From positions 1 to 64,000 of the forward strand of contig NZ_JACJQG010000031.1 of the NCBI RefSeq assembly GCF_014696435.1: 64,000 nucleotides of DNA, given 5' to 3'. Within the stretch, counting starts at the first letter, position 1. The number at the start of each line of letters is the position of its first letter. Source of the DNA: Calothrix anomala FACHB-343. Lineage in GTDB: Bacteria; Cyanobacteriota; Cyanobacteriia; Cyanobacteriales; Nostocaceae. The position numbers and the translations under genes are program-made. Of the stretch, positions 4,432 through 18,813 are shown in pieces. The notes beneath the pieces were generated by a model. It was not told where the DNA came from. It did no database searches and saw nothing but the letters and a program-made list of their open reading frames with translations.

Positions 4432-6720
4432 CTAAGCCAGAACCTTTTGTAGGGTATTGAGTAAAATTTGTGCTGTAAAGGGTTTGGCTAAGAATTCGCG
4501 AATACCTAAATCTTGCTTTTGCGCAGGAGATTCATAGGACATGAGTCCACTCATGGCAATAATTTGTATTTTTGGATTCATGCGTTGCAACATCATGATT
4601 GTGCTAGCACCATCCATTACTGGCATCATCATATCCATTAATACCAGTTTAATTTCATCTATATGCTGGGCATAAAGTGCTAGCGCGCCAATACCATCGC
4701 TAGCAGTAATAATTCTGTAATTATGGCTTTCTAAAGTAGTTTTCGCAATCTCACAAATTGAGACTTCATCATCAACAACTAAAATTAATTCACCATTACC
4801 ATTTGGTAATTCTGTATGTGTGACTGCGTTGGTTTCTGCAATTTCTCGACTGGGTAAATAAACTTTAAAACAGCTTCCTCGATCAACTTCGCTGTATACA
4901 GTCACAAAACCATTGTGGTTTTTAATAATACCCATGACGGTGGAAAGTCCTAAACCGGTACCTTTACCAACTTCTTTAGTGGTAAAAAATGGATCAAAAA
5001 TTCGCTCCATAATTTCTGGGGGAATTCCTGTACCAGTATCCGCAATGGTGATGACAACATAAAAACCTTCTTTGGCATCAACATGCATACTCGCTGCATA
5101 ATTTTGATCTAACCAAAGGTTTTCGGCATTAATATAGAGCGTGCCCCCATTTGGCATGGCATCACGGGCATTTACACACAAGTTCATTAACACTTGATGC
5201 AGTTGAGTAGCATCGGCAAAAACTGTCCACAAGCTAGGAGTAATATCAGTTTTAGTTTCAATAGATTTGGGAAAGGTGCGTTGGGTAACTTGAGCTACAT
5301 CTAATAGTAAATGTCGCAATTGGACTATAGAACGACTACCTTCAACTCCGCGTGTAAATGAGAGAATTTGCTGGACTAAATCCGCACCTCGTCGGGCGCT
5401 GCTTTCAAGTATTTGTAATAATTGCTGCGTACTTTCATCGAGATGGGGAAATTTCAAGGGTAGGAGTTGGGCAGTGGCTAAAATTGGCGTGAGGATGTTG
5501 TTAAAATCGTGGGCGATACCACTAGCAAGAGTACCTAAGCTTTCTAAACGTTGAGCGCGGAGAAATTGAGCTTCTAATTGTTTTTTCTGGGTAATATCTG
5601 TACTCAATGTCAAAATAGATTTGGGGTTACCAGCTTCATCGCGCATCATTGTCCAACGACTTTCAACGATGATGTTTTTACTATCTTTTGTGACTTGCTG
5701 TAACTCGCCTTGCCATTTACCTTCTGTGGCTAATATTGTCTGTATTTCCACAAAGGGTGGTGCAGTGTCTCCAGATTTAAATAACAGTTTCGCGGCATTT
5801 TTACCAAAGACTTCGGCGGTTGTCCAGCCATAAAGACGTTCAGCGCCTTTATTCCAAAATAAGATATTATTTTCTAGGTCACAAACTGCGATCGCATCAA
5901 TAGAAATATCTAGTAGTGCAGCTTGCTCGTAGATTTTCTGTGCTGCTAATTTGCGATCGGTAATATCCTCAACTGTACCTACATGACCTAAAAATCTTTC
6001 ATCTGCGGAATACATCGGACTAGCAAGGGCGCGTACCCACCTTACCTCACCTTGAGGATTTAGCAGCCTGAATTCCTGCACCCAAGTACTTTGTTTTGAT
6101 ACAGTTTCTTGCCAATCTGCAACCACCGCAGCTTGTTCTTGGGGGTGAATTGCTTGCGTCCAACCTTCGCCTAAACTCTGTTGCGTACTTAAGCCAGAAA
6201 TTTCATACCATAAAGGATTATTGTAAGTCAGCTGTCCTTGCGCATCGGTTTGGAAGATAGCCAAAGGTGCTGAAGAACAAAGTGTACGGAAACGGTCTTC
6301 GCTTTCCTGAAAAGCCTGTTCTGCACTATGGCGTTTATACCGTTCTTCCGCTTCCCGTAATTCTCGTTCTACAGCTGGGACTAAGCGAGTCAGGTTACCC
6401 TTGATGAGATAGTCGTGCGCTCCCGCTTTCATCGCCGCTACAGCAATATCTTCGCCAATTGTACCGGAAACAATGATAAATGGTATATCTAGCTTGCGTT
6501 TTTGCACAACCTTTAAAGCATCTAAACCGCTAAAGGCAGGTAGACTATAATCTGCAATCACAATATCCCATAATTGTTGATTGAGTGCTGCTTCCATTTC
6601 ATCTGCGGTATCAACCCGGACATAATGCAAATTGTATCCAGCCCGACGTAGCTCTCTAACCAGTAGGAGCGTATCATCTTCCGAATCTTCAACAATCAAA
6701 ACACGCAGGTGGGGGTGCAT
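4432..6720 (-). CDS. Hybrid sensor kinase REC-PAS-PAS-HisKA-HATPase-REC
   Basis: A 762-residue phosphorelay kinase with no clear membrane segment, so probably cytoplasmic. Domain order: receiver (1-120, phospho-acceptor Asp57 in [14 protein letters not shown], Lys107), PAS (about 140-255), PAS (about 262-378), HisKA with His404 in [12 protein letters not shown], HATPase with N box near Asn517 ([10 protein letters not shown]), G1 at DTGTGI and G2 at GKGTGLGLS, then a second receiver (about 645-762, Asp696 in VLMDMMMP). The N-terminal receiver suggests input from another kinase. It is the last gene of a three-gene operon, starting 13 bp after the response regulator, so the neighbouring GAF kinase is a plausible upstream partner. 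The ligand of the PAS domains is unknown. Confidence 0.9.
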
Positions 6721-9680: not shown

Positions 9681-9755
9681 CTCCCTGCTCCCCTGCCTCT
9701 TGTGACAGTACGCGCTTCGAGGCATGGCAGTGCCAGTACCCCTACAATCAACGCT

Positions 9756-9932
9756 CATCTGTAGGGAGCATCCCAATTTTGACGCAATACCCTTCAAGGG
9801 TATTGCTATACCAACAAAGCCTGTCTTCGCAGGCTAAAAGTTTGATAGCCTGCGAAGGCAGGCTTCGTATTTCTAGCCCCACCCTTATAGGGTGAGGGCG
9901 TTTTTGCACATTTGGGATGCTCCCCATCTGTA
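9756..9932. mobile_element. MITE-like element copy 1 with TIRs and 8-bp target duplication
   Basis: The element itself spans 9764-9924 (161 bp). It begins GGGAGCATCCCAA and ends with the exact complement TTGGGATGCTCCC (13-bp terminal inverted repeats). It is flanked on both sides by CATCTGTA (9756-9763 and 9925-9932), a perfect 8-bp direct repeat as produced by transposition. Inside are nested palindromes: ACCCTTCAAGGGT, a stem GCAGGC...GCCTGC around the loop TAAAAGTTTGATA, and a CACCCTTATAGGGTG hairpin. It has no coding capacity for a transposase. A second copy lies at 16824-16983. Confidence 0.85.
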
Positions 9933-16815: not shown

Positions 16816-16991
16816 CAGTAGTGGGGAGCATCCCAATTTTGACGCAATACCCTCAAGGGTATTGCTATACCAACAAAGCCTGCCTTCGCAGGCTATCAAA
16901 CTTTTAGCCTGCGAGGGCAGGCTTCGTATTTCTAGCCCCACCCTTATAGGGTGAGGGCGTTTTTGCACATTTGGGATGCTCCCCAGTAGTG
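16816..16991. mobile_element. MITE-like element copy 2 with TIRs and 8-bp target duplication
   Basis: The element spans 16824-16983 (160 bp) with the same 13-bp ends as copy 1 (GGGAGCATCCCAA / TTGGGATGCTCCC). It is flanked by CAGTAGTG on both sides (16816-16823 and 16984-16991), a perfect 8-bp duplication different from that of copy 1. The body is nearly identical to 9764-9924, except that the 13-bp loop of the central hairpin reads TATCAAACTTTTA, the exact reverse complement of the loop in copy 1. It has no coding capacity. Confidence 0.85.
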
Positions 16992-17029: not shown

Positions 17030-17210
17030 CAAAAACCCCTCAAAACAAAATTGACAGACTACCAGATTGTAGGGGCACTGGCACTGCCATGCCCCGAAGC
17101 GCGTACCTCATTTACCGGAAATCTGCTGTAAACCCAGAGTAGGGGCGGGTTTATGGGTAATTGTCGATTAGGCTAAAATTTGCATAGCAAAATAGCAGTT
17201 AATCTTGGTA

Positions 17211-18321: not shown

Positions 18322-18369
18322 TTACCCCGCCCCTACAATTTGGCATTATTTATTTTTTGGAGTTCCCTT

Positions 18370-18663
18370 AACGAGTCTTGGAACCTGATTAATGAGTCTT
18401 GGAGCCTGATTAACGAGTCTTGGAACCTGATTAACGAGTCTTGGAACCTGATTAATGAGTCTTGGAACCTGATTAATGAGTCTTTGAGCCTGATTAATGA
18501 GTCTTGGAACCTGATTAATGAGTCTTGGAACCTGATTAATGAGTCTTGGAACCTGATTAACGAGTCTTGGAACCTGATTAACGAGTCTTTGAGCCTGATT
18601 AATGAGTCTTTGAACCTGATTAATGAGGATATTTTCTTCGTTAATGAGCCTTTGAGCCTCATT
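18370..18663. repeat. 21-bp minisatellite, 14 units
   Basis: Twelve clear units of AAYGAGTCTTGGAACCTGATT (with variants TTTGAGCC and TTGGAGCC) followed by two degenerate units fill 294 bp without any length change. Because 21 is a multiple of three and no unit carries a stop in several frames, long open frames appear on both strands here; they are repeat artefacts or at most a 7-residue peptide repeat. The array lies about 150 bp upstream of the ATPase gene. Confidence 0.9.
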
Positions 18664-18813
18664 TTTCAAGTAGGGTGTGTTACGCCGCAGGCTAACGCAC
18701 CGCCAATTTGAGTAATAGTTGACGCTAAAGTTATAACCCACCCGAAAATTTAATTCTCTACCTATCTCCGTAAATTTGCGATAATATGGCGCTAAAATCG
18801 GAAACTCAGATTT

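Follow-up and report, generated by a model that had tools for sequence, protein, structure and literature searches.

The DNA analysed here, which we call the window, is a stretch of 64,000 nucleotides of Calothrix anomala FACHB-343, located on contig C70 of a host assembly of 9.24 Mb in 144 contigs. We found two copies of a short element with inverted ends in it, each placed between two identical 8-bp words:

9756–9763 (no strand): left 8-bp target duplication of copy 1 (CATCTGTA)
9764–9924 (+): MITE copy 1, 161 bp, with the large loop in the AAAAGTTTGAT orientation
9764–9776 (+): inverted end of copy 1; with the next 5 bases it forms 18 bp that agree exactly with the 5' end of ISMic1-type elements
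9912–9924 (-): inverted end of copy 1; with the next 11 bases it agrees in 23 of 24 bp with the 3' end of ISMic1 and of the element in a congener (G004)
9925–9932 (no strand): right 8-bp target duplication of copy 1 (CATCTGTA); the empty site in Calothrix brevissima NIES-22 holds one word, TATCTATA
16816–16823 (no strand): left 8-bp target duplication of copy 2 (CAGTAGTG)
16824–16983 (+): MITE copy 2, 160 bp, with the large loop inverted relative to copy 1 (ATCAAACTTTT)
16984–16991 (no strand): right 8-bp target duplication of copy 2 (CAGTAGTG)

The first-pass annotation of this DNA had described a common body with 13-bp inverted ends at 9764–9924 and 16824–16983, a different perfect 8-bp repeat around each copy, and no transposase coded by either of them. 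We recovered the coordinates and ends exactly, with CATCTGTA present twice around copy 1 and CAGTAGTG twice around copy 2, and the three ORFs that cross the copies (66–74 aa) matched no Pfam or NCBIfam family at E values up to 1. The exact terminal 13-mer (GGGAGCATCCCAA) occurs four times in the window, and all four occurrences are ends of the two copies. With up to two mismatches allowed, 6 matches were detected versus 1.07 expected; since 6 matches were also reached in 1 out of 100 shuffles, the 13-mer alone is weak evidence at that tolerance. We also observed a second short dispersed repeat (around GGCATGGCAGTGCCAGT) close to both MITE copies (window 9703–9760 and 17065–17106), which lies in opposite orientation at its two sites, both of them matching one stretch of NIES-22. 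Elsewhere in the window (18333–18741) there is a tandem repeat whose frames are open on both strands and give repeats of SLIRFQD and LINESWN.

A genome-wide search of the host for the 13-bp ends, with at most one mismatch, gave 85 forward and 83 reverse matches (168 in total, or about 84 element equivalents), versus 0 and 1 for a reversed control pattern. BLAST placed at least 40 full-length elements and further partial ones among the best 40 of 184 candidates scored. Many of the ends were located close to contig ends, presumably because the repeat interrupted the assembly. We read 49 paired rows and kept 48 copies, after one false pairing of nested ends had been removed. Perfect 8-bp duplications surround 30 of the 48 copies and perfect 9-bp duplications another 5; 8 copies have a duplication with one mismatch and 5 have none (L002, L006, L007, L008 and L009). 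Other lengths (4–7 and 10–12 bp) were represented by a single match, of 4 bp, and 2000 shufflings of the right flanks of these 48 copies produced 0.77 duplications on average and 7 at most. The perfect 8-bp words are rich in A+T (72%, versus 59% for the window). The element is thus short, has inverted ends, many copies and no recognised transposase gene, and its target duplications differ from copy to copy (35 of the 48 copies perfectly duplicated), as in a bacterial MITE. At one host locus (L010, C113:32891–33224) the MITE is doubled in tandem and TATTGATTC stands next to each of the two copies; NIES-22 has one copy there.

The earlier reading of the flanking repeats as the mark of transposition, and of the copies as MITEs, is well supported by these 35 copies and by the empty sites described below. 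Its proposal of a transposase that makes 8-bp duplications agrees with 30 of the 48 copies and needs to be widened for the 5 with 9 bp. Copies without duplicated flanks, which it had regarded as contrary evidence, do exist (5 out of 48), and three of those five (L002, L007 and L008) are located at a block that we suspect to be misjoined. This MITE-bounded block of 5699 bp is found twice in the host (L221, C134:7467–13165; L222, C68:163816–169514), with identical interiors and three differences in the MITEs. We rejected its reading as a composite transposon, as the C68 copy points to a misjoin: the left flank at C68 continues in NIES-22 into sequence found on host contig C96, and therefore we take the join at C68 to be a probable misassembly. 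The C96 sequence adjoins a MITE end and the word AGCGATTT, and the C68 side reads AGTGATTT.

The host and NIES-22 are mostly 96–97% identical in the aligned pieces of the window region (92% in one piece). At the position of copy 1, NIES-22 reads AATCAACGCT-TATCTATA-CCTCACC, that is, one target word, with two substitutions relative to the host CATCTGTA. The locus of copy 2 has other DNA in NIES-22 and thus offers no empty site. We joined the left and right flanks of 14 further host copies and compared them with NIES-22. Two more clean empty sites were recovered: L020 (104 bases of left flank and 150 of right flank around the single word ATTAGACAC) and L236 (60 left and 150 right bases, read as a 9-bp word). 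The junction was also spanned for L011, L019 and L023, with just 13–16 contiguous bases of left flank; the left flank of L023 reappears after about 100 extra bases. L030 and L229 gave gapped alignments with repetitive flanks, L005 and L027 matched on the left side alone, and L227 was spanned at two separate NIES-22 places and is therefore located in a repeat. The joined flanks of L003, L018, L028 and L238 were not among the NIES-22 matches listed. Empty sites lacking the target word, the other kind of contrary evidence named in the first-pass annotation, were not what we found: the word is present once in the three clean sites (copy 1, L020 and L236), and L011, L019 and L023, with their short or gapped left flanks, are further one-word sites.

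Based on flanks, 5 of the 48 host copies, at 4 sites (L017, L024, L235 and the tandem-doubled L010), are inserted at the same place in both species when compared with 41 NIES-22 copies analysed; one-sided short matches (L017/L147 and L231/L255) were dropped from this search. The mean identity among 46 host copies, with the loops left out, is 98.6%, and this high identity together with the few shared sites suggests that the MITE has been active recently. The 41 NIES-22 copies, a part of those present there, include 30 with perfect 8-bp duplications, 2 with perfect 9-bp duplications and 6 with one mismatch; 21 of these same 41 are 185 bp long, 18 are 161 bp, one is 160 bp and one is 130 bp. The 185-bp form has 24 extra bases in the large hairpin (L083 and L113) and, common as it is in NIES-22, was seen a single time in the 48 host copies that we analysed.

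In copy 1 a stem formed by the ends encloses three hairpins, with a folding energy of -52.5 kcal/mol as DNA (z -10.9) and -96.6 kcal/mol as RNA (z -12.3), and 0 out of 200 shuffles folded as well. The MITE had no match in Rfam. Such strong nested hairpins would also be expected of a REP-type palindromic repeat that includes the 8-bp words and owes its spread to recombination or to a RAYT-like (Y1) transposase. We consider this highly improbable, as the 8-bp words vary by copy, are perfect in 30 of the 48 copies and are single in empty sites, and the ends are common to full elements with an ISKra4 transposase. Y1 transposases are not known to make such duplications.

Those full elements were found outside the host. 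When plasmid records were queried with the MITE ends (36 and 30 bases), one match to each end was detected on Allocoleopsis franciscana plasmid NC_019761.1, 1773 bp apart (4832–6604), enclosing a gene annotated as ISKra4-like element ISMic1 family transposase and flanked by the perfect 8-bp duplication TTCTGTAT. The transposase of this ISMic1 consists of two overlapping frames. For the ISMich2 group, a transposase of two ORFs has been described, with a -1 frameshift proposed for it (PMC3942029). ISMic1-type elements also carry an extra 136-aa ORF after the transposase (L173 1108–1518; L174 3110–3520), which in ISMic1 matched no Pfam family. The main transposase frame of ISMic1 found matches in 47 of 99 genomes, and the best of them was in congener G004 (82% identity), in an element of also 1773 bp with the duplication AATTGTTC. 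Both proteins score above the NCBIfam ISKra4 cut-off of 205 bits (266.3 for ISMic1 and 256.1 for G004). Three more elements of 1775–1777 bp with the terminal 13-mer were located on Fischerella and TIOX110 plasmids; one, on a Fischerella plasmid, has a perfect 9-bp duplication (CTCAAAAAC), no duplication was found around the other two, and the ATGTG difference between the two ends is absent in all three.

The two ends of the MITE are not the same: GGGAGCATCCCAA is followed by TTTTG at one of them and the other reads ATGTGCAAAAA. The 5' ends of ISMic1 and the G004 element have 18 out of 18 bases in common with one MITE end, and their 3' ends 23 out of 24 with the other; the MITE therefore retains the left–right difference of those elements. 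Like the MITE, ISMic1 shows the TTTTG versus TGTGCAAAAA end difference and an 8-bp duplication; unlike it, ISMic1 is 1773 bp long and has the two-frame transposase and the extra 136-aa ORF. The common sequence is confined to about 18–24 bp at each end, and the interiors share nothing beyond a 12-base match at chance level. As far as the accessible text goes, prokaryotic Mutator-type elements including ISKra4/ISMich2 have ends of 18–39 bp and duplications of 8 or 9 bp (PMC3942029). The element studied here agrees with these end features (18–39 bp, a conserved terminal base, 8- or 9-bp duplications), its own perfect inverted end being 13 bp, and it has its ends in common with presumably autonomous elements (ISMic1 and the G004 element) that code for an ISKra4 transposase. 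We are thus highly confident that it is a non-autonomous ISKra4-family MITE, most likely derived from an ISMic1-type insertion sequence, a reading drawn from sequence comparison.

A full insertion sequence with the same ends, which the first-pass annotation had suggested looking for, exists in those other genomes; we did not find an ISMic1-type transposase in NIES-22 or in the host assembly, whose division into 144 contigs leaves absence from the genome unproven. The sole host match to the ISMic1 transposase (45% identical) belongs to a 1166-bp element on contig C18, with ends GGGAGCATCTCAG and a 9-bp duplication (TTAGCAAAT). It is conceivable, if rather unlikely, that this distant ISKra4 relative and not an ISMic1-type element moves the MITE today by cross-mobilisation: it is resident in the host, its ends may be compared with the MITE's GGGAGCATCCCAA, and its duplication has the length seen in 5 of the 48 MITE copies. 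Over 20 bases, however, its ends agree with the MITE ends at 13–15 positions, whereas the matching ends in ISMic1 and in the G004 element reach 18 and 19, and perfect MITE duplications are mostly of 8 bp (30 of 35), yet an ISMic1-type element on a Fischerella plasmid also has one of 9 bp. In NIES-22 the sole match (56% identical) belongs to a 1173-bp element with ends GGGAGCATCCACTTTTGG and the duplication CTAATTTC. Over 30 bases of the 5' end, this element agrees with the MITE at 21 positions, the same as ISMic1 (21) and close to the G004 element (22), so that the case for an ISMic1-type ancestor depends on the outer 18–24 bases.

Other places were also searched for a parent. In host contig C2 (L034 991–1513), a single MITE-like end lies about 150 bp from an ISKra4-like transposase remnant. 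This remnant was rejected as parent: we found no GGGAGCATCCCAA-type end pair in its relatives, and the ends of L117 differ (GGGTGCAATC...). In 20 genomes of the family, inward-facing neighbours of the exact 13-mer were roughly 120–290 bp apart among the matches listed. We inspected 39 regions, nearly all at ends without an exact partner, and found no pair of IS length with a duplication; no transposase was recognised by eye in the ORFs of 11 of these 39 regions.

Under the ISMic1-type reading, an ISKra4-type DDE transposase would bind both ends of the MITE (GGGAGCATCCCAA plus TTTTG, and ATGTGCAAAAA), acting in trans, and would move it into AT-rich DNA, where insertion would leave duplications of 8 bp and less often of 9 bp. 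The interior, with no recognisable protein, consists of three hairpins within the end stem, and these, when single-stranded or extruded as cruciforms, could let the short loops be recopied in the opposite orientation. The sequences themselves show the copies with their ends and duplications, the empty sites, the full-length elements with matching ends in other genomes and the two orientations of the loops; the transposase now at work, and the way in which loops invert, are inferred.

Both orientations of the loops were observed, and copies 1 and 2 of the window have the large loop in opposite ones. Of the 49 host rows, among them the false pairing, 24 show the large loop as AAAAGTTTGAT, 24 as the reverse complement of this sequence and one in another form; for the small loop, TAGAA was read in 23 rows, TTCTA in 10, TCAA in 12 and other sequences in 4. 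Each of the four possible combinations of the flipping forms is represented in these rows (12, 11, 6 and 3). In the 41 NIES-22 copies analysed, which are not all of those there, the large loop was found 13 and 25 times in its two orientations and 3 times in another form. At the four insertions common to both species the large loop never differs, and the small loop is opposite at two of them (L024/L268 and L235/L253). The orthology of L235 and L253 is supported by a private end mutation that both carry (GGCAGC). Apart from the loop, L024 and L268 show two single differences, and L235 and L253 show one single difference and one run of four. Inversion of the small loop in place seems the simplest reading of these sequences; gene conversion from another copy may be the alternative. 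Small inversions at hairpin loops occur in chloroplast genomes. We lean slightly towards the view that extrusion of the hairpins, or their copying as single strands, is a regular event and that their loops (11 bp and 3–5 bp) flip in place, which would make the copies natural recorders of template switching at hairpins; the two loops occur in either orientation, and in all four combinations, in both species, and the flanks are unchanged at the two shared insertions with opposite small loops. If inversion does happen in place, the loops would allow errors in hairpin copying to be counted, as a natural assay.

The MITE is also itself a target. We searched the host with an end query starting with 43 bp of the MITE and scored the best 40 of 135 candidates. 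This gave at least 8 ends of an IS4-type element on its transposase side, 5 of them at the palindrome CCCTATAAGGG inside the MITE (L060, L043, L049, L061 and L062, all at host contig ends) and 3 elsewhere, at other words; three other-side ends inside the MITE were left uncounted, as their detection depended almost wholly on the MITE part of the query. The element is assigned to the IS4 family by way of a relative from a different genome (L088). At these contig ends, a 43-bp MITE end runs into the start of an IS4-type transposase, which could be taken to mean that an IS4-family element adjoining those 43 bp is the parent of the MITE. We regard this as hardly conceivable: the 28-bp ends (CTTGTCATTACC...) belong to the IS4 element itself and are found outside the MITE too, and the side on which this element meets CCCTATAAGGG varies between contigs (one side in L060, the other in L062), and therefore it is an insertion into the MITE and not its parent. 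The sequences suggest that this insertion gives an 11-bp duplication, no single insertion having been seen whole. At one host locus (L062/L225, C63:1–405), a MITE lies inside the large loop of another MITE with the duplication AGTTTGAT, and this nest also adjoins the IS4-type element, making three levels. Such insertions represent one mobile element serving as landing site for another. IS231A favours GGG-N5-CCC sites in the ends of Tn4430.

The exact 13-mer was detected in 18 of 20 family genomes, with up to 50 occurrences on one strand; these genomes were chosen mainly for few contigs, and several were already known to match. The elements bounded by it have several different interiors, some with perfect duplications. 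The exact 43-bp end of the MITE was found in NIES-22 alone (39 stretches) within the genome_contigs collection, which may omit the records closest to the host. Phage records contained no match to the MITE, plasmid records gave one weak match (73% over 61%), and the 13-mer GGGAGCATCCCAA was not found in our literature search.

Among known systems, one for comparison is Nezha, a MITE of Anabaena and Nostoc, which in the accessible parts of the reports is proposed to be mobilised in trans by an ISNpu3-like IS (PMC10969869, PMC3049150). The element described here is an ISKra4-type MITE, like Nezha in kind: both are cyanobacterial and proposed to be mobilised by an IS in trans, a likeness drawn from their descriptions. 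The related cyanobacterium Anabaena sp. 90 has 147 complete or partial type II MITEs, and those of group 1 contain, like ours, three inverted-repeat regions; within the accessible text no parent IS is recognised for them, which sets them apart from the present element in their description (PMC3542288). The present ends are therefore worth comparing with them. TIMEs are likewise small, transposase-less elements that transpose; together with TIME-COMPs they differ, according to the accessible part of their description, in belonging to the Tn3 family, with 38-bp ends and 5- or 6-bp duplications (PMC4133298). We found no credible TIME-COMP-like composite here.

Finally, our analysis links an abundant hairpin MITE of filamentous cyanobacteria with a transposase family that has a name. 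The element belongs to a known kind, of which it is a new and well-supported case, and it leaves the present picture of MITEs as it was; the loop inversions and the use of the MITE as an IS4 landing site are the less ordinary parts of the finding.
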